A stretch of 21,191 bases of DNA from a virus. The stretch is taken from IMG/VR virus record IMGVR_UViG_3300031601_000048, positions 1 through 21,191 of that record; one strand, given 5' to 3'. The position numbers and the translations under genes were made by a program. This document shows positions 96 through 11,757 of this stretch, in pieces. Position 1 is the first letter of the stretch; every line of letters begins with the position of its first letter. The notes under the pieces are model-generated. The model saw only the letters and a program-made list of their open reading frames with translations. It was not told the DNA's origin and did no database searches.

Positions 96-1241
96 CTAGT
101 CAAACACGAACGTGCATTCGTCACCACCGGAGGAGGCAGATGCAAAGGCCGGGCCCGTGGCGCTCCATTTCTCCACGCCCTCTTCCGGGCTGTCCTGGTC
201 GCCGGCGTCAAATTCCACCTTGGGCGCGTCGATCTTGAACCTATCAGCGGCCGTGTCGCCAAGCGTCAGCAGCAAATCTTCCTCGCCCTTGGCGCGGAAC
301 TCGTTGACCAGGTCGTTGTTCTCGCGCGTGACCAGGAAGGACAGGTTAGGCGTCACCTCCCGAATGCCGGCAGCCAGCACGTCCGATGCCTTGGACTGCA
401 GGGCCTCCTGCGTCATCAGTGTCACGCCGTTGGCCACGTCGAACGTAGACGGCAGATGGACGATGGTAGTGGCCCCGGCGTCCAGCGACAGAGACCCGGC
501 GGTGCCACCAAGCGGGTCACCCGTGTATGTGGGATCAGGCAGGAAGGCCTTGACGGACGAACTGGAGGCCACAGACGTGGCGGCGGAGAGCGTCAAGTCG
601 TTCCCGGATATGCTCTCAATCCTGAATCCGGCGCCGGTGTTGTCATCATCGCCGAGCTGGACTATCCCATATGCGCTGAACTGTGACCCGTCGTCAACCG
701 TCAGCAGCGTCGAGCTGGTGCTGATGGTGGCCAACGCGTACCCGGCATTGATGTAGTCCGTCCCCTCGCCGGAGAACGACACCTTCGCCAATCCTTCGCC
801 CCACGATACCGTGGCTTTGTTGACGACGGCCCCATATACCCCCTCCTGCGTCTCGGAGCGGGCAACGTAGATGCTCGCAGACAGGGACGTGGGATCCTCC
901 AAGAACGAATAGGTCACGGATATCCCTGTGTCTATGCTCTCCGTGCCGAACAGGTGCTTGAGGACGTTGCCGATATCCGGCGCCGTCCCCGCCGTCCCGG
1001 AGGGTCGCAGATAGCAGTCAATCGTCCACGGTATGACCGGCTGACGCAGGGCGATGCGCTCGAACCTACTACGCGCGCCGCGGTGGTCGGCTAGGGTTTC
1101 GTAGCCCTTCGGTCTCCCGATGGTAGCCGAGAGGGCCCGGAAGGCATCGCCCGCCACGGGGATCTTCGGAGTGAGCAGAGAGTCTTCCGGCGAGAAGAAC
1201 ACCGCCAGGTCAGACCCTACGTTGTAATTACGGTTTCCCAT
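96..1241 (-). CDS. Major tail tube protein
   Basis: This 381-residue protein is probably the structural subunit that polymerises into the inner tail tube. The N-terminal part (about 1-170) contains a segment around GTAPDIGNVLKHLFG (residues 85-99) of the kind seen in phage tail tube proteins, and beta-rich tube-like sequence resumes after about residue 240. Residues 176-236, rich in Ser, Thr and Asp, look like an inserted beta-rich domain that would decorate the tube exterior. The start ATG has an AAGGAG site 8 bases upstream. It is the last complete gene of the structural operon here and follows the tail terminator and glycosyltransferase genes, where tail tube genes usually sit. The assignment rests on position, size and composition rather than on a decisive motif. 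Whether the tail is contractile cannot be told, because no sheath gene is visible. Confidence 0.72.
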   Translation of the reverse strand: MGNRNYNVGSDLAVFFSPEDSLLTPKIPVAGDAFRALSATIGRPKGYETLADHRGARSRFERIALRQPVIPWTIDCYLRPSGTAGTAPDIGNVLKHLFGTESIDTGISVTYSFLEDPTSLSASIYVARSETQEGVYGAVVNKATVSWGEGLAKVSFSGEGTDYINAGYALATISTSSTLLTVDDGSQFSAYGIVQLGDDDNTGAGFRIESISGNDLTLSAATSVASSSSVKAFLPDPTYTGDPLGGTAGSLSLDAGATTIVHLPSTFDVANGVTLMTQEALQSKASDVLAAGIREVTPNLSFLVTRENNDLVNEFRAKGEEDLLLTLGDTAADRFKIDAPKVEFDAGDQDSPEEGVEKWSATGPAFASASSGGDECTFVFD

Positions 1242-1259
1242 GGTCGAGCTCCTTGTGAG

Positions 1260-2021
1260 TTACTCCAGCTGCCATTTGGCCTGATGCTCCGGGATCTTGC
1301 CGTTCTCGGCGCCCGAATCGATGATTTCCCCCATGACCAAGTGCCCGATGCGCAGGTCCAGGTCCACGTGTACGGTGTATCCAGCTGCACGGGCAGCCGC
1401 ACAGAACCACATATCCTCCGAGATTTGCTCCTGCGGCTTCAGCTGTGGAATCTGCCGACCGTCAAGGAAATACTTGCCCGCCAGGTGCGGAAGCGCCTTG
1501 TCGATGGCGTCGAAAACCTCCATGTCGATCAGGAGGCAGGCCCCACCGGTGGCGTCGCACTGGTGCAGGCCAAGGCCCGGGGGCTGCTCGAAGTGCAGCC
1601 ATCCGTCATCGTCCAGCACCCACACGCACATGTTGAACGGGCTCCTACGCTGCCGACAGAGGCCGCCGACGATGGGCTTGTCGTGGCCTATCAGCCGCTC
1701 CAGCGTATCCGGCGGAGGCGTCATATCCGCGTCGATGAAAAACAGCTTTTTGACTTGCAGCTCGCGGGCCTTGGAGACCGCGGTATTTCGCATCTCGTCA
1801 ATGGCGTCGCCGTCAACCTGGATGAATCGGGCGTTGTGCTTGAACATGGCGGACATGCAGGACATATGCCGCTTGTACACGTGATCCCAGTTCAGCGGGC
1901 TGGCGATGAGCACGTCGGAGTAATCGTCACGCGGTGCGGCGGGCAGCGCAGACGATGCCATCTCCGGCTTGAGTGTTTGGGCCAGCCTGCTAAGGTTCGA
2001 GCCGAATACGGGCTTGTCCAT
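1260..2021 (-). CDS. Family 2-like (GT-A) glycosyltransferase
   Basis: This 253-residue protein is predicted to transfer a sugar from a nucleotide-sugar donor. A DAD metal/nucleotide-binding motif lies at residues 97-99 inside FFIDADMTPPPDTLERL, followed by KPIVGGLCRQRR at 116-126. A likely catalytic SED triad lies at 201-203, and a late His is at 227. These match the compact GT-A enzymes often found in phage structural operons. The start has a GAGGAGGAG ribosome site about 6 bases upstream. No signal peptide or membrane anchor is seen, so it should act in the cytoplasm. Its position between the tail terminator and tail tube genes suggests that it glycosylates virion proteins; that target is inference. 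The acceptor could equally be a host molecule or DNA, but no modified-base pathway is visible nearby. Confidence 0.85.
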   Translation of the reverse strand: MDKPVFGSNLSRLAQTLKPEMASSALPAAPRDDYSDVLIASPLNWDHVYKRHMSCMSAMFKHNARFIQVDGDAIDEMRNTAVSKARELQVKKLFFIDADMTPPPDTLERLIGHDKPIVGGLCRQRRSPFNMCVWVLDDDGWLHFEQPPGLGLHQCDATGGACLLIDMEVFDAIDKALPHLAGKYFLDGRQIPQLKPQEQISEDMWFCAAARAAGYTVHVDLDLRIGHLVMGEIIDSGAENGKIPEHQAKWQLE

Positions 2022-2044
2022 GATAGCTCCTCCTCAGAAGCGAG

Positions 2045-2545
2045 TCAGGTGGTGATGATGCCGACGGAAATGGCCAGACGCTGCTCGAAGTTCGGGGCCT
2101 GGTCGTCCAAGGCGCGAGCGAAAGGCTCCGCGTCCGTGACCAGCACCTCATCTGCCCATTTCGTGCCGGACAAGGTCAGGTTGTTGTTCTCCTCCAGTAT
2201 GTCAACTACGGCCTCCCAATAGCGCCACAGCAACGCAACGACTACCTCCTGGGGTGAGAGCGTGCCCACGACCGTATTGCCGCCGGCGACAACACCCACC
2301 AACACTTCCTGCATGTTGACGCGCTCGCCGCCCCGGTAGTCTCTCTCGCTCCCGCCCGAAGCCACGACGATATTCAGATCGCCGCCGAAGTCGCGCTGCG
2401 GGCTGTTGTACCAGTTGTCCACAGCCACCAGCGTGACACCGTCGTCATACGCCGTATTGATGGACGCGATCTTGGCAACCCACCCTGCCTCCAGGACAGC
2501 CCGGACTTTCGTGGCCGTAACCTGGGCGTTCTTAGATCCGGCCAT
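2045..2545 (-). CDS. Putative tail terminator / tail completion protein
   Basis: This 166-residue protein has no signal peptide or membrane segment. It is encoded immediately after the gpG-like morphogenesis protein, whose gene it overlaps by 14 bases, and before the tail tube gene. That is the usual slot of the tail terminator (gpU/Mu gp37-type), which caps the tail tube and joins it to the head. The alternating hydrophobic pattern and a length of about 160 residues fit that small alpha/beta family. An AAGG element upstream is a modest ribosome site. The sequence itself carries no signature I recognise, so the function is inferred from gene order. Confidence 0.5.
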   Translation of the reverse strand: MAGSKNAQVTATKVRAVLEAGWVAKIASINTAYDDGVTLVAVDNWYNSPQRDFGGDLNIVVASGGSERDYRGGERVNMQEVLVGVVAGGNTVVGTLSPQEVVVALLWRYWEAVVDILEENNNLTLSGTKWADEVLVTDAEPFARALDDQAPNFEQRLAISVGIITT

Positions 2546-3047
2546 CGTTGACCTTGGGCTTCATAAAGTCGTAGAAGGAATCCTGCATGGCCTTGGAATA
2601 GTCGTTCTGGAAGGGCTGCGGCAGGCCGATCAGCGCCCGCATGGGCAGGAGCCCCCGGCCCGGTGTCACCTGCTGGTGGTACTTCATATAAGGCACGTGC
2701 GTGCCAAATTCGGCAGCCGTCGCCCTGCTATTCCGCTTCGCAACGTGGTCGCGCCCGTTGGGCTGGATGAACGACCTGATCAGCCGCAGCTTGCGGTGCA
2801 TCAGCGAGCGGCCCGGGTAGTGCTGCTCCTTCCAATGCCGGTAGCCCTCAGACAGCGGCGGCCACGGCTTCCCCAGCACCCCACCTTGCGTCTCCCAGAC
2901 CTTCTCCGAGTGCTTGACGAATATCTTATCGAGCTTGCCGACCAACCCCTTGTCCGCGTAGAACGGCCGCCGCATCCACTCGCCACCAGACAGGAGCGCG
3001 TGCTGTAGCGAACTGAACCCCTCGACGCGGACATTGAGCTTAAGCAT
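2532..3047 (-). CDS. Phage virion morphogenesis protein (Mu gpG / tail S family)
   Basis: This 171-residue protein resembles the Phage_tail_S (virion morphogenesis) family, which acts at head-tail joining or tail completion. The family pattern is visible in order: a helical N-terminus, then WPPLSEGYRHWK (about residues 62-73), PGRSLMHRKLRLIRSF (78-93), and the hallmark GTHVPYMKYHQ (115-125) close to the C-terminus. The length is typical. The gene overlaps its upstream neighbour by 8 bases and the tail terminator candidate by 14, so translation is probably coupled. In Mu the equivalent gene lies directly after gene F. Here it has moved downstream of the connector gene. Confidence 0.82.
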   Translation of the reverse strand: MLKLNVRVEGFSSLQHALLSGGEWMRRPFYADKGLVGKLDKIFVKHSEKVWETQGGVLGKPWPPLSEGYRHWKEQHYPGRSLMHRKLRLIRSFIQPNGRDHVAKRNSRATAAEFGTHVPYMKYHQQVTPGRGLLPMRALIGLPQPFQNDYSKAMQDSFYDFMKPKVNDGRI

Positions 3048-3396
3048 CGGCCTTCTTGGCTTTCGCGGCGACCTTCACCGGCTGCGGAGCCCACAGCGCC
3101 ATGCCCGACTTGTACCCGGCCATCAGCACCTTGTTGCCAGTGCACCGCGCCGCAGCACCTACGGCATTGTTCCGCTTCCCCTGCCGCATGGCGATGGGGT
3201 CCGGTGCACCAAGTCCAGCCGATGCGCGCGCGGCCTGCATGTCCTCAAATACCGAGACGATGCACTCCCGCAGCTTCTCCCGCGCCTTCGACTCCTCCGG
3301 CGGCAACAGCTCGCCGGGCTCGTACACAAATTCCCGCACGTCGCACACACCACAATAGCAGTTGGCGCCGTGCCTCAAGACCGTTTTCTCTACCAT
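3040..3396 (-). CDS. Hypothetical protein with N-terminal Cys cluster
   Basis: This 118-residue protein is not recognised. Near the N-terminus are three cysteines in the arrangement CYCGVC (residues 13-18), possibly a metal-binding knuckle. A helical acidic stretch follows, then a basic C-terminal tail (VKVAAKAKKADA). The gene overlaps the connector gene by 7 bases and the gpG-like gene by 8. The start ATG has only a weak ribosome site (GGAT), so expression likely depends on translation of the upstream gene. Its place between connector and gpG-like genes suggests a small neck or head-completion factor, but no motif proves this. Confidence 0.55.
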   Translation of the reverse strand: MVEKTVLRHGANCYCGVCDVREFVYEPGELLPPEESKAREKLRECIVSVFEDMQAARASAGLGAPDPIAMRQGKRNNAVGAAARCTGNKVLMAGYKSGMALWAPQPVKVAAKAKKADA

Positions 3397-3953: not shown

Positions 3954-6236
3954 TCACAGCGTTACCTCAAGGATGAGAGAGGCGCCGGCGAACTCGGTGG
4001 TCCCATCTTCCTGCACCATCTGGATCGCGACCTCGTCACCCGCCGCGACGGCGAGCGAGACAGAGGTGTCGCGCTCCATCACATCCCCCCCGGTCCATGT
4101 GAACGTATCCACGGTGCCCTGGGTGGTATTGATGAGCACGAAGATGCTATCGTTGTTCGTGGCCGAGTTTGTGGTGGCGTGAGCCTGCACCGCGGAGATG
4201 GTACCGGCAATCGGCATGTAGATACCCGAGCCCACGTCAGACTCAAGGATCCATACCTGCGTGCCAACAGGGGTCGTGCTGTAATCGGCCACCACGCAAC
4301 GCGCCCGAATCCAAAATGCAGACTGGGTGTTGACGGTGGTAGCGGCCCAGTCAGTCGGGGGCGTGAAGGTGGTAAAGTAGGTGCTTGTCCCGGCGGTGAA
4401 GCTGATGGAGTCGTCCACGAACTGCGACGTCTCCAACGTGACAAACGCGGCGCCGCTCCAGTACTCCCAGGTGATGGAGCTCAGGGCAGTTCCACCAACC
4501 ACCCCAGCCGTGCCGACGGTCAGCTTGATACCGGAGAAGATGCTATCCTGCCCGAAGTAGTAGGCGTCACTTGTCGCCTCAGTCGCCGGCAGCAGCGTCA
4601 TGTCATTGGCGCCGGCGCTGTTGGCTTCGGCCGTCTCGTCGGTGAATGCCCCGCCATCGTCGGCATAGGCATAATCCACAGCCGATGCCGTCAGCGTGCC
4701 CACAAGGACGCCGTCCGCCGCGGCCCCACCACGGTTGGCGAGGGTAGCCGACAACCCCACGGTGACCGGAACGGTGAGCGTCATCTTGGCGGAGGTGACA
4801 GCGTCGTCGCCGATGTTGGCCGTTGCCGCCACCAACGTGACCGCTGTGATGTAGCAATTGAACGCACCGGCAGTCCCCGCCGTTACGATGGTCGCATCCA
4901 GCGCCTCAGTGGCCGGCAGACGGCAGATGCCCTCGAACCTGTCGCCGATAGCCCACGCCCCAGCGGCGAAGTCGTCAACGATGGCATTGGGGTCCGTCGT
5001 TTCCGAACCAACGTCCACATCAGGCGTTCCCGCCGCGGCTTCCGTGGCCACAGCCCTGACGAAGACGAGACGGTCATTGCTGGCATCAGCCGCCAGCAGC
5101 TCGAACGGCGAAGCGTCGGCATGGTCCAGAGCCACCGCCACGCTCTCGAACTGACCCAGCGCCAGCTCAGGAATCTTCGCACCCGTGACCGAATCTGCCG
5201 TGAGGTGCTCTGTATCTACGGCGTCGTCGGCCAGCTTCGTGCCGTCGATAGCGTCAGCGGCTATGTTGGCCGTCTCTGCCACCAATGTAACAGCCGTGAT
5301 GTAGCAGTCGAACTTGCCCGCCGTGCCCGCAGCGGTGATGGTTGCGTCAAGGGCCTCGGTCGCCGGTAGTCGACAGATACCCTCGAAACGATCCCCGACC
5401 ACCCAGGCGCCTGCCTCGAAATCATCGACGATAGCATTCGGGTCCGTCGTCTCAGAACCAACGTCAACGTCGGGAGCGCCAGCGGCGGCCTCGGTGGCCA
5501 CGGCCCTGACCAGGACGATGCGGTCATTGCTCGCATCCGCGGCCAACAGCTCGAACGGGCTCGTGGCTGCATGATCCAGCTCCACAGCTGCGACCTCGAA
5601 GGATCCCAAAGCGCTCTCAGGGATCTTGGCGCCCGTGGCAGAGTCGGCCACAAGGTGCTCCGTGTCCACGGCACCATCGGCCAACTTCGTGCCGTCGATG
5701 GCATCCGCAGCTATGTTAGCCGTCTCCGCCACCAGCGTTATGGCCGTGATATAGCAGTTGAACTTGCCAGCCGTTCCGGCCGTGACGATGGTAGCGTCCA
5801 AAGCCTCACCCGCCGGCAAGCGGCAGAGCCCCTCGAAGCGATCGCCAATGGCCCAGACGCCGGAGCCGTAGTCGTCCACGATGGCGTTGGGATCGGTGGT
5901 CTCGGAGCCCACGTCGATGTCAGGGGTGCCCACGGCGGCCTCAGTGGCAACGGCCCGCACCCAACAAAGGCGGTCGTTGCTCGCGTCAGCGGCCAGCAGC
6001 TCGAAAGGACTGGTGGCGGCGTGATCCAGAGCCACCGCCGTCTGCTCGATGGAGCCCAGAGCACTCTCGGGGATATTGGCCCCCAGTACGGCGCCCGCCT
6101 GGATGTGTTCGGAGCCGACCGCATCATCAGCGATCAGCGTGTCGTCGATAGCGTCAAGCGCTATGTCCGCCGTGTCCACCAACAGGGGCGCGTCGAATCC
6201 CCCGGTCAGCTCAAAGCGGCCTCTGTGTTTCAGCAT
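3954..6236 (-). CDS. Repeat-rich head fibre / surface protein
   Basis: This 760-residue protein is the largest product here. A 21-residue leader is followed by three tandem 150-residue repeats (22-171, 172-321, 322-471) and a truncated fourth start (472-485). Each repeat begins with an AIDGTKLADGAVDTEHL-like segment typical of phage head or tail fibres, then a beta-rich unit containing DHAATSPFELLAADASNDR and GDRFEGICRLPA. The C-terminal part carries a WEYWSGAAFVTLE / FTPPTDWAATTVN / FWIRAR module (about 588-645), a pattern common in phage surface proteins. It ends with a beta-rich tip (about 676-760). The start has a GAGAGG site. Lying between the capsid and connector genes, it is more likely a head fibre or decoration protein than a tail fibre. 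A role in adhesion to cells or surfaces is inference. Confidence 0.72.
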   Translation of the reverse strand: MLKHRGRFELTGGFDAPLLVDTADIALDAIDDTLIADDAVGSEHIQAGAVLGANIPESALGSIEQTAVALDHAATSPFELLAADASNDRLCWVRAVATEAAVGTPDIDVGSETTDPNAIVDDYGSGVWAIGDRFEGLCRLPAGEALDATIVTAGTAGKFNCYITAITLVAETANIAADAIDGTKLADGAVDTEHLVADSATGAKIPESALGSFEVAAVELDHAATSPFELLAADASNDRIVLVRAVATEAAAGAPDVDVGSETTDPNAIVDDFEAGAWVVGDRFEGICRLPATEALDATITAAGTAGKFDCYITAVTLVAETANIAADAIDGTKLADDAVDTEHLTADSVTGAKIPELALGQFESVAVALDHADASPFELLAADASNDRLVFVRAVATEAAAGTPDVDVGSETTDPNAIVDDFAAGAWAIGDRFEGICRLPATEALDATIVTAGTAGAFNCYITAVTLVAATANIGDDAVTSAKMTLTVPVTVGLSATLANRGGAAADGVLVGTLTASAVDYAYADDGGAFTDETAEANSAGANDMTLLPATEATSDAYYFGQDSIFSGIKLTVGTAGVVGGTALSSITWEYWSGAAFVTLETSQFVDDSISFTAGTSTYFTTFTPPTDWAATTVNTQSAFWIRARCVVADYSTTPVGTQVWILESDVGSGIYMPIAGTISAVQAHATTNSATNNDSIFVLINTTQGTVDTFTWTGGDVMERDTSVSLAVAAGDEVAIQMVQEDGTTEFAGASLILEVTL
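4824..6173 (-). repeat. Three tandem 450-bp coding repeats
   Basis: Three consecutive 450-base units lie in frame at 5724-6173, 5274-5723 and 4824-5273. Matching segments recur at exactly 450-base spacing: for example the stretch encoding CYITA(I/V)TLVA near 5740, 5290 and 4840, and that encoding SPFELLAADASNDR in each unit. The first unit is the most diverged at its 5' end, while units 2 and 3 begin almost identically. The repeats are inside the fibre gene and are suited to copy-number change by recombination. Confidence 0.93.
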
Positions 6237-6806: not shown

Positions 6807-7733
6807 TCAAGCCACGGCGTTGGTGAACAGGTAGGCGCAGTCAGTCGCGATGACCTTCTGCAGGTACCTGTCCTGCACGAGCTTCCAGGTGCCCTCGGGG
6901 TCGTTGCTCGCCCACTCTCTGACCTGTCGTGATGCACCCCGCGCCAACGTGGCAAAGGCCGTCATAGTGCGCGGCCGCGGGCTGTCCTCGATGTGCGCCA
7001 ACACGGCGTGCTTGCCCCAGATGTAGGACAGGCTGCCCGTCTGGCCCTCGTCGGTCGTGTTGCGCCGCGCCGTGCCCACCAGGAACTTGGCCGGGTCGAT
7101 GTCCAGCAGGCCCGCGAACTGATCCCGGGTGATACCTCCGCCGGCGGTGTACTGATACCGGCTGACGATGTCGGGATGCTGGCGCAGATACTGCCACACC
7201 TGAGCGCCGCAGACGAAGGCGTTGGCGTTGGCGTTGAGCGAATCCCGCGCCGTCTCGATCAGCGTCAAGGGGGCGCTGGTCTCGTCCGACCACTGGTCTG
7301 TCCCGGTCAGCGTTGCGCCGGTAGTCACGTAGGTGGCAGAGAAACCGATGGACGCCGCGCGATACTCCCGCCCAACCAACAGGTGGTCAGTCAGGAACTC
7401 GGTGGCGTCCTCCTCGGGATCAATGGGCGAGTCGGCGTTGTCGATCTCTTCCTGCGTCACCAGCTCCTTGAGAGCGTAGCGATCCAAGGTGAAGGACGTG
7501 GTGCTGAGTGCGTAGTTGACCTCGGGCGCCGGGGTTCTGGTACCCAAGGGGCCGTCGCGCTCGACACGAAGGGAGTCCTTCGGGTATACGAAATACTTTC
7601 CGGCGTCCTTGCTGTCCCACTGCACGGACTGCTGGACGGGAAACATCCTGTCGGCGATGTAGTCATCGTTTCCGTAGGCCAAACTGAAGCCCGTCATCGC
7701 CTTGTCTACGCGTGCTTGCGAAGGCAGCGGCAT
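6807..7733 (-). CDS. Major capsid protein
   Basis: This 308-residue protein is very likely the HK97-fold major head subunit. Features in order are a short N-terminal region with FSLAYGNDDYIADRMFP, a YALKELVTQEEIDNAD segment (about 89-104), a long helix-rich middle, and a DIDPAKFLVG...WGKHAVLAHIE stretch. The last part contains FATLARGASRQVREW and ends in CAYLFTNAVA. The length equals that of Mu T-type capsid proteins, about 300 residues. Its position directly after protease/scaffold and decoration genes is the classic head order. An AAGGAG site lies 8 bases before the start. There is no large N-terminal delta domain, consistent with the scaffold being a separate product. Confidence 0.85.
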   Translation of the reverse strand: MPLPSQARVDKAMTGFSLAYGNDDYIADRMFPVQQSVQWDSKDAGKYFVYPKDSLRVERDGPLGTRTPAPEVNYALSTTSFTLDRYALKELVTQEEIDNADSPIDPEEDATEFLTDHLLVGREYRAASIGFSATYVTTGATLTGTDQWSDETSAPLTLIETARDSLNANANAFVCGAQVWQYLRQHPDIVSRYQYTAGGGITRDQFAGLLDIDPAKFLVGTARRNTTDEGQTGSLSYIWGKHAVLAHIEDSPRPRTMTAFATLARGASRQVREWASNDPEGTWKLVQDRYLQKVIATDCAYLFTNAVA

Positions 7734-7816: not shown

Positions 7817-8206
7817 TTACACGCCGATGTATCCGCCGCCGTTGGGGTAGACAATGGCGTAGTCGCCGGAGTCCCACGTCTGGTCCACCTGGCCGATGAC
7901 CCAGTCCTTGTCGGTCGTCTTGCTCTCCAGCAAGCCGGTGGCTGTCGTGCCCACGTTGCCCACCGATACGCCGGCAGAGGCCACGACGACCTTGAACGGG
8001 CGACCGGGGGCCAGGGAGGCGATATCGGCACCGTCACCCGCCGCGGACGGCAGGTTGTAGATGGAGCCGATGGCCAGGTCGGTGGCCGCGGTGCACACGG
8101 CTACCTGCCCAGCCGTGGCGGTGTGCATTACCAGGTAGTACTGGGACGAACTGAAGTCTCCGTTCGCCTGCAGACCCGGATAGAAAAGGGGGGCCTCGGT
8201 AGCCAT
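7817..8206 (-). CDS. Capsid decoration-like protein
   Basis: This 129-residue, glycine- and alanine-rich beta protein sits between the protease/scaffold and major capsid genes, the usual place for a head decoration or stabilising protein. It has no transmembrane segment or signal. Visible features are a repeated small-residue strand pattern, including VVVASAGVSVGNVG (residues 73-86), and a C-terminal YAIVYPNGGGYIGV. This fits the DUF2190-like or gpD-like class. Its ATG overlaps the protease stop by one base (TAATG), with AAAGG just upstream, so it should be translationally coupled. The gap of 83 bases to the capsid gene is GC-rich and holds no gene. Confidence 0.65.
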   Translation of the reverse strand: MATEAPLFYPGLQANGDFSSSQYYLVMHTATAGQVAVCTAATDLAIGSIYNLPSAAGDGADIASLAPGRPFKVVVASAGVSVGNVGTTATGLLESKTTDKDWVIGQVDQTWDSGDYAIVYPNGGGYIGV

Positions 8207-8874
8207 TACGCATCATCCTTTCGGGTCGGATAGCGCCACGCATCGACGACATCCTGGGGGAACTGTGCCATCGCCTCGCGCAATGCCATGCTCTTGGCCT
8301 CGGCGGGGGCTTTCTTCAGCGTCATCAGCTCGGCCTCGCGCGTCGCAATGAAGTCAGCCACAGCCTGCGTGTCCGGCGTCGCGCTGGTCTCATCGTCGCC
8401 GACTTCGGCGAAGTCGATGACGGGCGAGCGGTTGTCCAGGTTCGCCTGGAAGATGTCCATATCCAGCTTGGCCAGCTTCGTCAGCTCATCGCGTTCCGCT
8501 GGCTTGATCTTGCCGGCGGCCTGTGCGGTGTCCAGCGCATCGCTGATATCCTTCTCGGCCAGGCTCTTCGCTGCCTTGGCGCCCTCTGCGGCATCTGCCC
8601 GCAGCGTGTCTAGGTCGCCCTTGGAGAGCACCACCTGATCAGCGGCAGGCTGCGCAGCCGTCAAAGCCTCGTACTGCTCGGCCGTCAGGATGACCTTTCC
8701 GGCTACATCAGCCGCGGCCATCTCGGCGTCGCCGTCGGGCGTGCGCACGGACAGCGGCGCGCTCAACGTCAGGTTGTCCTCGTGCACCTTGGAAAGGGCC
8801 TGGCTCTGGTGATCGGCGGTTACTTCGACGTCGTCACTCAGGCCAAGCACCTCACGAATCTCTTTCTCGTTCAT
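8206..8874 (-). CDS. Predicted internally initiated scaffold (Mu Z-like)
   Basis: This is an in-frame internal product of the protease gene, starting at Met249 (ATG 8874) and ending at the same stop, for a length of 222 residues. Its ATG follows GGAGGTAAC with a spacing of about 9 bases, better than the start of the full-length protein. The product begins MNEKEIREVLGL and is rich in Ala, Asp, Glu and Lys, with long predicted helices (for example AEGAKAAKSLAEKDISDAL), the character of a capsid scaffold. In phage Mu, scaffold Z is likewise made from an internal start in protease gene I. It would assemble with the capsid protein and be removed by the protease. Expression is predicted, not shown. 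Confidence 0.72.
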   Translation of the reverse strand: MNEKEIREVLGLSDDVEVTADHQSQALSKVHEDNLTLSAPLSVRTPDGDAEMAAADVAGKVILTAEQYEALTAAQPAADQVVLSKGDLDTLRADAAEGAKAAKSLAEKDISDALDTAQAAGKIKPAERDELTKLAKLDMDIFQANLDNRSPVIDFAEVGDDETSATPDTQAVADFIATREAELMTLKKAPAEAKSMALREAMAQFPQDVVDAWRYPTRKDDA

Positions 8875-9618
8875 TTCGGAGTTACCTCCGGTTGTGGGTT
8901 GGGCCTGCGCGGTAACGTCTCCGAGCAATGCCTGTAATTGTTCCGGGTCGATGTCCTTGAGTCCAAGACTGGCCGTGATCGCTCCGGCCATATCGGTTGC
9001 AGCTGCGTTCGGTTTCTCCGGCGTTTCGATGAATAGCTTGCGCCCGCGCACCCAAGCGGCCGCCAGGGCGTTTTCTGGTCCATAAGCAAGAGATCCGTGG
9101 TTGTAGTCCACCACCATCTCGGTGTCCGGCTGGTCAGCATCGGCGGAGACGGACCGGAAGACCTCGCCCTGGTTGTCTATCATGCTCTGCAGGTCATCAG
9201 GCGTGACCGTGAACTTGCCGTACCAGGGGTGATACCAGACGCCCGTCAAGAACACCTGCACCGCTGACATGGTCTCACCCGGGGCGAGCTCCACCGCGGC
9301 CATGCCAGACAGAAACGGGCGGTTGACCAATCCAATGGCCAGCAATGCGGCCCCTTTGTGCTCCTCGTCCTTCTCGCTCTGCCAATCCAGGTCGAACTCT
9401 GGCGAAATGTAGCGGAACTCCCCGGCGCGGATGTACTCCTGCGCCCGCGGTGTCCAGTCGCACTCGGCCCACAATTCTGCGTATGGCGCCTTGGGATCGT
9501 CCGCCAGGCGCAACGCCGGACCCATCGCCGCGGCGAGACTACCGCGGATGCGGTCGGGGTGCTCCTGCTGTAGAGACAGGAGGGAGGCCAATAGGCCAGG
9601 ATGCGTCAGAACGGTCAT
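8206..9618 (-). CDS. Mu I-like prohead protease with scaffold, permuted domain order
   Basis: This 470-residue protein combines a Mu I-like maturation protease with a C-terminal scaffold. In the usual family order, a HPWYGKFTVTPDDL segment and the DYNHGS motif come first, then AAAWV, and finally WTPRAQEYIRAGEFRYISPEF and GLVNRPFLSGM. Here the order is reversed. WTPRAQEYI/FRYISPEF occupies 55-75 and GLVNRPF 96-102, followed by HPWYGKFTVTP at 130-140, DYNHGS at 171-176 and AAAWVRG at 186-192. No second copy of either half exists. The candidate catalytic residues Ser72 and His174 are inferred by analogy with other prohead proteases. Residues 249-470 are acidic, alanine-rich and helical, as expected for a scaffold. 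The gene starts directly after the portal stop. Confidence 0.83.
   Translation of the reverse strand: MTVLTHPGLLASLLSLQQEHPDRIRGSLAAAMGPALRLADDPKAPYAELWAECDWTPRAQEYIRAGEFRYISPEFDLDWQSEKDEEHKGAALLAIGLVNRPFLSGMAAVELAPGETMSAVQVFLTGVWYHPWYGKFTVTPDDLQSMIDNQGEVFRSVSADADQPDTEMVVDYNHGSLAYGPENALAAAWVRGRKLFIETPEKPNAAATDMAGAITASLGLKDIDPEQLQALLGDVTAQAQPTTGGNSEMNEKEIREVLGLSDDVEVTADHQSQALSKVHEDNLTLSAPLSVRTPDGDAEMAAADVAGKVILTAEQYEALTAAQPAADQVVLSKGDLDTLRADAAEGAKAAKSLAEKDISDALDTAQAAGKIKPAERDELTKLAKLDMDIFQANLDNRSPVIDFAEVGDDETSATPDTQAVADFIATREAELMTLKKAPAEAKSMALREAMAQFPQDVVDAWRYPTRKDDA
8881..8889 (-). promoter_or_regulatory. Internal ribosome-binding site for scaffold
   Basis: On the minus strand this reads GGAGGTAAC, a near-perfect anti-16S match inside the protease coding frame, with the ATG at 8874 after a suitable gap. 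It decides the start of the predicted scaffold and would let the phage make scaffold in excess over protease. Confidence 0.8.
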
Positions 9619-11757
9619 CTATGCCCCCGTGCGGAAGATGTAGTTGTACATGCACCGGCACTTGTTGGCGCCGCTGGCCGTGGATAGGCACTCCTTGTCC
9701 GGCGGCATCTGCTTGAAATACTCAGGCGTGCCCACGGTGTATTCGTTGCCATCCTTCGCCCTGCACACTTCGCAGACGTTGCCGTCGAGGATCGCAGAAC
9801 GCCGGGCTACCCGGATGTCATCTTTGACCTGCTGGGCGATGTCGTCACGCCCCCAGTTGAACGACGTTGAGACCATGGACCGCGCCCGGTCAAAGGCGGT
9901 CGGCTCGAACAGCGGCCGCGCGCTCACCTCGACAACTGGATTGCCCTCCAGGCGGTCGCGTATCTGCGCCACGCCATCGCCTTCCGCCGCGTCAAGGATG
10001 TCCTCGTCAATGGCGCGCACGGAGGCGGTCAAAGCATCTTCCCGCTCGGTGCGGTATAGGTCCTGCGCACCCTCGCGGGCAGCGTTGTCCATCATACTGG
10101 CGAGCGTCGCCATGTAGAGTTCAGCCGCGGCCTTGTATGCCTTGGTGTTCTCCACCCTGTCTGGCGACTCGTCCCGCGCCGTGCTGCTCTGCTGCCGCTT
10201 CTTCTCTTCGCGCACCTTGGCCTGGCCATAGCGGAATACCTCCCGCTGTATCGCCACCAGGTCATTGCTGCGGCTCTGCACCATCGCCTTTGGGATGGAG
10301 ATGTCAACGATGTCCGACGGGTCCCCATCGGCCAGGGCCGTCTTGATTTGGACCATCAGCTCGTCCACCCATATGGGCCGCAGGGCACGGAAGACGTTGA
10401 CGATCTGCTCCTCGGCGTCGTCCTGCTTCCCGGCGATCTCACCCAGGGACATCGTTTTCTCGATGTCGTCCAGCTCGCGCCAATAAGGAGAGCTGGCCAA
10501 CTGCTTTGCCTGGATGGCCGGAGGCCGCGACGCCTGAGCCACTGGCGCCGCATCCCGCTGCGGGGCCTTCATAATGTTGCGTATCCAGCCTTCTGTCTCG
10601 TCGTCAGCCGTTAGGAAGCCGCCCCGCGCGAGGCGCTCCATGGCCGTCGCCACGGCGTCGATCTGCACAACCTGCAGGTCAGACCAACGCACCTTGGCTT
10701 GTACGCTCTCTGGGTTGGCGACGTTCCACTCCAGCCATCGGGCTATCAGCTGGTCATTGACGCCATCGGCAATCCAGTCTGCGATCCCCTCCAGCCCGAG
10801 CTGGAACACGTCCAGGAGATTCTTGGCCAGCGCATACGAGCCGGTGAAGGACCTGCCGAGCACCAGCACCATGGCAAGCACGGCAGTGGCTATGCCCTCG
10901 TCGCAGTAGCGGATCAGCGGCATAGGATCATAGCGGCCCGCGTCACCCTGGCCGGCTATGTCAAACGACCACCCGTCGGGCAGGTATAGATGGGACTTGG
11001 CCCCGGCGCGGTAGTTCTTCGCCAGCTTGGCCGCGGCCGTCTTGTCCGTGGAGTCGTATTCCTTGGGGGAATGGATCTCCGGCGTGCCGAGGCCGAAGCG
11101 CTCCAGCGCCATGGCGGCAATGCGTTCCGTGGTGTCTTTGATGAACCACGGCTTATAGGCGGCACGTAAACCACTACGTCCTACAAAGTTATTGCCGATC
11201 TGATCATAGGCGAGATGGAACAGGATGTCACCGGGAATAGGGATCTTCTTGAACTTGTTGTCCTTCCACACCTGTTGCGTGATGCCGGCAAGTTCCCCGT
11301 CGGCGTCCGTCTGCCACTCCTTGACGGTAGCCTGCCCGCGGTGGGCGAGCTTCTTGAACCAGAATTGCCCGCCATCATCCTCCGGGACGATCTCCATCAG
11401 CTCAAAGCCGTACGTCCAAGCCAACAGGGCATGCTCAAGGAAGCGGGGGAAAGAGATGCGCTGGAACAGAGCCTCCTCCAGGGCGGCTTTGATGCCCTTG
11501 TCCTCGCAGTCTACCTCCCACGTCGCCGCGCGGATGGGCAAGTGGACGATGTTCTCAGAGGCCTGCACCTGGGGATCCGTCAGCATCTTGGTGATATTCT
11601 CGATGCCCGTGGAGCCCTGTAGCTTGGGGTTGTATTCGTCGTTGTCGATGAAGCCACGATAAAACGACGTACCGGTAGCCCCCACTTCGGCCGTGCTGGC
11701 TGATTTGGCGGCTACCTTCCGCGCTGCTGTCTTGCTCTTGCCTCTGCGTCTGCTCAT
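9619..11757 (-). CDS. Portal (Mu gp29/DUF935-like) fused to Mu F-like head protein
   Basis: This 712-residue protein forms the portal through which DNA is packaged. The basic N-terminal tail is followed by the DUF935 portal pattern: DPQVQASENIVHLPIRAATWEV (about 61-82), LLAWTYGFELMEIV, GRSGLRAAY (193-201) and ERFGLGTPEI (219-228). The C-terminal 300 residues resemble the Mu gpF head-morphogenesis protein. They end in a Cys cluster, CEVCRAKDG (662-670) with later cysteines at 690, 700 and 702 (CRC), a typical zinc-binding tail of that family. In Mu, portal and F are separate genes, so this is a fusion. The start ATG follows a GGGG element. It is the first gene after the internal promoter at 12009-12036 and directly abuts the protease gene. 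Confidence 0.87.
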   Translation of the reverse strand: MSRRRGKSKTAARKVAAKSASTAEVGATGTSFYRGFIDNDEYNPKLQGSTGIENITKMLTDPQVQASENIVHLPIRAATWEVDCEDKGIKAALEEALFQRISFPRFLEHALLAWTYGFELMEIVPEDDGGQFWFKKLAHRGQATVKEWQTDADGELAGITQQVWKDNKFKKIPIPGDILFHLAYDQIGNNFVGRSGLRAAYKPWFIKDTTERIAAMALERFGLGTPEIHSPKEYDSTDKTAAAKLAKNYRAGAKSHLYLPDGWSFDIAGQGDAGRYDPMPLIRYCDEGIATAVLAMVLVLGRSFTGSYALAKNLLDVFQLGLEGIADWIADGVNDQLIARWLEWNVANPESVQAKVRWSDLQVVQIDAVATAMERLARGGFLTADDETEGWIRNIMKAPQRDAAPVAQASRPPAIQAKQLASSPYWRELDDIEKTMSLGEIAGKQDDAEEQIVNVFRALRPIWVDELMVQIKTALADGDPSDIVDISIPKAMVQSRSNDLVAIQREVFRYGQAKVREEKKRQQSSTARDESPDRVENTKAYKAAAELYMATLASMMDNAAREGAQDLYRTEREDALTASVRAIDEDILDAAEGDGVAQIRDRLEGNPVVEVSARPLFEPTAFDRARSMVSTSFNWGRDDIAQQVKDDIRVARRSAILDGNVCEVCRAKDGNEYTVGTPEYFKQMPPDKECLSTASGANKCRCMYNYIFRTGA

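Follow-up and report, generated by a model that had tools for sequence, protein, structure and literature searches.

A circularly permuted prohead protease gene

The gene at 8206..9618 very probably codes for a fusion of a scaffold with a prohead protease of the Mu I type (assemblin fold), in which the protease domain underwent a single ancestral circular permutation. The Ser-bearing half that was originally C-terminal now stands ahead of the His-bearing half that was originally N-terminal, a few residues connect the former termini, and the new break in the chain falls in the beta-hairpin loop that links the 'AAGWV' strand to the 'ELWAEVEWT' strand. The sequence analysed (the window) is IMG/VR record IMGVR_UViG_3300031601_000048, a metagenomic viral fragment of 21,191 bases, and all of its features described below are on the minus strand.

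The gene is a single uninterrupted reading frame of 470 residues with a dN/dS well under 1. PF10123 (Mu-like prophage I protein) was the one family matched by Pfam (96 bits, E 4e-27, cut-off 25.2), and the match fell into three stretches, as did the PHROGs match to phrog_328, head maturation protease. When the protein was cut apart, residues 49-110 corresponded to profile positions 78-134, residues 151-194 to positions 26-69 and residues 228-416 to positions 133-302. The match is not colinear in the window protein, since positions 78-134 lie ahead of positions 26-69. Rearrangement of the halves into the canonical order gave a single colinear match of 107 bits, as compared with 96 bits in three stretches, indicating that the order is rotated and that this is more than a set of rearranged motifs. 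A home-made canonical profile, constructed from 34 canonical relatives and 139 positions long, matched the window protein with positions 71-136 (residues 46-111, 70 bits) and then with positions 3-64 (residues 116-192, 41 bits). The equivalent pattern was found in the related contigs L003, L016 and L032, and in L140 positions 68-134 were followed by 3-64. The window gave one match to itself.

Each half is present once, in swapped order and in one frame, with the old termini joined, as in a circular permutant. The sequence-only reading had proposed such a swap and had named a colinear profile alignment as a result that could overturn it; both PF10123 and the canonical profile returned the rotated, non-colinear order. 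The motifs on which the proposal was based were located where it had placed them, WTPRAQEYI, FRYISPEF and GLVNRPFLSGM within residues 55-106 and HPWYGKFTVTPDDL and DYNHGS within residues 130-176. It was also correct that each half occurs once in an uninterrupted frame, and that the candidate Ser (72) comes before the candidate His (174). The halves themselves had been correctly located, with boundaries that were slightly too tight.

Active-site residues and boundaries of the permuted domain

The canonical C-terminal half occupies residues 46-111 (9286..9483; profile 71-136). It includes the putative nucleophile Ser72 (9403..9405), which aligns with the invariant canonical S103, and Asn99 (9322..9324) of the L(T/V)NRP motif, which is invariant in permuted and canonical forms. 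The canonical N-terminal half (profile 3-64) occupies residues 116-192 (9043..9273) and includes the putative catalytic His174 (9097..9099), which aligns with canonical H54. Both His54 and Ser103 are invariant in the canonical alignment, and the equivalents of Ser72 and His174 are retained across all permuted lineages. Most permuted members have Val in place of the Thr found in the LTN motif of canonical members.

The only canonical positions unaccounted for are 65-70, which form the loop at which the chain is opened. About 2-6 residues bridge the former C- and N-termini; in the window this new join consists of residues 112-115 (9274..9285), which are modelled with high confidence. Residues 1-45 (9484..9618) are a poorly conserved N-terminal extension of low pLDDT. 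No homology of this extension to either protease half was detectable (the match to the canonical strand profile was not significant), nor was there a significant match to the extensions of canonical relatives. At the other end of the domain, a non-conserved linker, residues 193-248 (8875..9042), runs from the opened hairpin to the scaffold. The earlier statement that the scaffold follows the protease directly is nearly correct, with this linker lying between the two.

Structure models of canonical and permuted proteases

The AlphaFold2 model of the canonical sister L052 (pLDDT 90) has the succession of elements E-E-E-H-E-E, E-H-E-E. The model resembled the VZV protease (Z 10.9, rmsd 2.4 over 110 residues) and T4 gp21 (Z 9.2), and the canonical sister is predicted to have the herpes-assemblin/T4 gp21 fold. 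Its strands 68-76 and 79-86 form the hairpin that corresponds to the opened loop of the window protein.

Residues 1-215 of the window protein were modelled in the same way. The first part of the model consists of E48-55, H57-64, E70-76 and E91-98, and the second part of E117-124, E126-130, E134-138, H140-148 (with H150-157), E169-172 and E186-198. These are the elements of the canonical sister in rotated order, so the predicted secondary structure agrees with the swap that had been proposed. The overall confidence was moderate (pLDDT 76, pTM 0.74, with disordered ends); means over blocks of ten residues lay at 82-95 for residues 41-150 and at 71-83 for residues 151-200. The alignment behind the model consists mostly of half-domain fragments, and the contacts between the halves consequently rest on few full rows. 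Foldseek with the window model found no assemblin match, the best match in the viral library covering 68 columns, as expected for a permuted model since the method is order-dependent. The best Z obtained with VIA-align against the PDB was 2.8, which is uninformative for a permuted chain because this method also follows chain order. A sequence search of solved structures gave no match, and the solved and predicted structures that were searched included no full-length permuted counterpart.

The possibility was considered that the enzyme is domain-swapped, with each active site made up of the C-terminal half of one subunit and the N-terminal half of its neighbour. The join is short and prohead proteases occur in many copies, both of which would favour such an exchange. 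However, the model of the monomer packs the two halves as one domain with a confidently predicted join, and joins of 2-6 residues suit an intramolecular permutation, in which the old termini should lie next to each other. A domain-swapped enzyme is improbable.

Scaffold, nested start and neighbouring genes

The scaffold region comprises residues 249-470 (8206..8874; PF10123 positions 133-302) and begins at a nested start, Met249. A GGAGG Shine-Dalgarno-like sequence (8885..8889) lies 10 nt before this start. The start is conserved in L016 and L032, where AAGGAG precedes the equivalent ATG, and the PF10123-type C-terminal scaffold with an internal in-frame start is present in all three sequences. 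Mu I/Z and lambda C/Nu3 show the same kind of nesting between protease and scaffold.

If translation also began at Met117, the N-terminal half and scaffold would be made as a separate chain that acts in trans with the C-terminal half, and the GGGTGAG before Met117 in the window is a passable ribosome-binding site. However, this Met is not conserved, being replaced by GTC in L016, by GTT in L032 and by Lys-Thr-Ser in L140, which makes a separate chain unlikely. Moreover, the join stays in an open frame in all lineages, and there is very little probability that the protease is split.

The upstream neighbour is a Mu-type portal gene (9619..11757; PF06074, 149 bits), the C-terminal part of which is weakly Mu F-like (PF04233 below cut-off). 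Downstream, a gene for a small protein (7817..8206), with no family match and conserved in L002, L032 and L033, occupies the position of a decoration protein, a function suggested by its place. The major capsid protein is encoded at 6807..7733 (PHROG 1005, 218 bits). The place of the protease between portal gene upstream and capsid gene downstream is thus kept as in canonical relatives.

Several other features were recorded. ARAGORN reported a tRNA-Ser (GGA) at 9891-9984 inside the portal gene, which is probably spurious since it sits within a conserved coding region. In L032 the portal gene (1143-3284) is in two frames and in the matching contig L033 it is intact; the split in L032 probably reflects either an error in sequencing or assembly or a gene that is broken. 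The product of 1260-2021, among the head-tail genes, has weak similarity to glycosyltransferases (Pfam below cut-off; PHROG 12406, E 6e-5). In an open reading frame of 760 residues at 3954-6236, an in-frame tandem repeat of 450 bp is present in 2.8 copies (4813-6084), and L002, a 95% relative of the window, has a shorter version of 472 residues with one repeat copy. This difference in repeat number represents a recent in-frame tandem duplication or loss within the same phage group.

Selection on the permuted domain

Comparison of the window with its 95% relatives gave dN/dS values of 0.08-0.09 for the C-terminal half, 0.02 for the N-terminal half and 0.22 for the scaffold. Both protease halves are under purifying selection in the permuted state and are more constrained than the scaffold. 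These values bear on the idea that the protease has decayed, leaving the permuted domain as a structural relic beside a scaffold that alone matters. The replacement of the Thr of the LTN motif in most permuted members would be consistent with decay. However, the low dN/dS of the halves relative to the scaffold, the retention of Ser and His in every permuted member and the lack of a second protease gene of the PF10123 family in the permuted records make decay highly unlikely.

Recurrence in other viral contigs

The same order of halves was found in nine other viral contigs from different assemblies, representing four divergent lineages, when other phage genomes were searched as the sequence-only reading had suggested. 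Three are 95% relatives (3300022890_000133, 3300005935_000583 and 3300005939_000306), and six are divergent (3300004641_000043, 3300038364_000070, 3300028188_000023, 3300010883_028708, 3300036808_000396 and 3300035698_009536). A fourth close contig, L005, has the scaffold part only. In each of the nine records the canonical profile matches exactly twice, once per half, within one open frame, and a search with that profile found no canonical copy of the protease in any of them. The protease region of L016 is 54% identical to that of the window and that of L032 is 50% identical. The window is a metagenomic fragment, and an assembly artefact that joined the halves of a normal gene in the wrong order could be supposed; however, the same break and join in nine contigs from different assemblies across four divergent lineages, some only about 45-54% identical, exclude misassembly for all practical purposes, and reads are not needed for this conclusion.

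Canonical open reading frames accounted for about 100 among the first 133 loci retrieved. A search of cultured phages and plasmids gave nothing beyond short matches to 12-22% of the query, and bacterial and archaeal genome contigs yielded two relatives, both canonical, and no permuted form. The permuted form was found here in uncultivated viral contigs only.

Phylogeny and route of origin

The permuted sequences, five representatives of which were included, were rotated before the tree was calculated. The permuted genes formed one clade (bootstrap 100, SH-aLRT 96), nested in a 100/99 group with the canonical L051-L053 and L020-L022. Trees of the single halves, which have few columns, kept the clade with support of 96 for the C-terminal half and 83 for the N-terminal half. 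The simplest reading is a single origin of the permutation in an ancestor.

As the sequence-only reading had proposed, the permutation probably arose by tandem duplication, in frame, with subsequent loss of the outer halves, and such an origin is plausible judging by permuted proteins in general. Remnants of the lost outer halves beside the kept halves, scored against shuffles, were not significant, and no duplicated intermediate was found among canonical relatives; the duplication-deletion route is consequently inferred.

Proposed function and significance

The product is most likely a working prohead protease. The permuted chain would fold into the same three-dimensional protease, and Ser72 and His174 would meet as they do in canonical members. 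Scaffold digestion and trimming of capsid proteins in the prohead are the role of Mu I, HK97 gp4 and T4 gp21. The permuted enzyme would likewise digest the scaffold and trim the capsid proteins within the prohead, after which packaging would follow. As the chain is opened at the hairpin, the scaffold tether would now depart from that point instead of from the original C-terminus.

Self-cleavage of T4 gp21 relieves a block of its active site by the N-terminal region (PMC9958956). Since both the N-terminus and the scaffold tether have been relocated in the permuted protein, its activation could differ. The permutation may have been non-neutral, the relocated tether and the new N-terminal extension having altered how the protease is kept inactive and then released in the prohead, to give this clade an activation geometry unlike that of other prohead proteases, a proposal that is regarded as doubtful.

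The prohead proteases of phages and herpesviruses constitute one ancient fold family. A natural permutation maintained for a long time suggests that neither the fold nor its link with the scaffold is destroyed by complete rewiring. The event is a clean one, with canonical sisters available for comparison, and it becomes testable whether activation depends on the end at which the scaffold is attached. Furthermore, tools that depend on order report permuted genes as fragmentary matches, and others may have been missed for this reason.

Comparison with known systems

Judging by titles and abstracts, papers that mention both circular permutation and prohead proteases apparently concern permuted genomes and not proteins, and circular permutation of a prohead protease of the Mu I type is apparently undescribed in the literature searched. 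The potato type II inhibitors (PMC2259423) are unrelated, naturally permuted proteins with the same kind of topological change, reported to have arisen by tandem duplication, the route also proposed here; in contrast to these inhibitors, no duplicated intermediate was seen for the phage protease.

The closest relatives in the tree, the canonical sisters L051-L053 and L020-L022 of uncultivated phages, have the same portal-protease order and, unlike the window, the canonical order of halves. A PPTEM(V/M)VD insertion ahead of the His motif is common to L051-L053 and the permuted genes. L051-L053 also have long N-terminal extensions, which bear no relation to the extensions of the permuted genes. 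The protease open reading frames of L051 and L053 have about the first 180 residues in common (63% identical), and this segment is absent from L052 and from the permuted genes.

The window protein is like the Mu I family (PF10123 Mu-like_Pro; PHROG 328) in having both halves, the invariant Ser and His, a C-terminal scaffold with a nested start and a gene located between portal and capsid genes. It differs in that its halves are swapped and its scaffold is attached to the opened hairpin and not to the original C-terminus. The His comes before the Ser in canonical Mu I and likewise in herpesvirus assemblin and T4 gp21, whereas in the window protein the Ser comes before the His.
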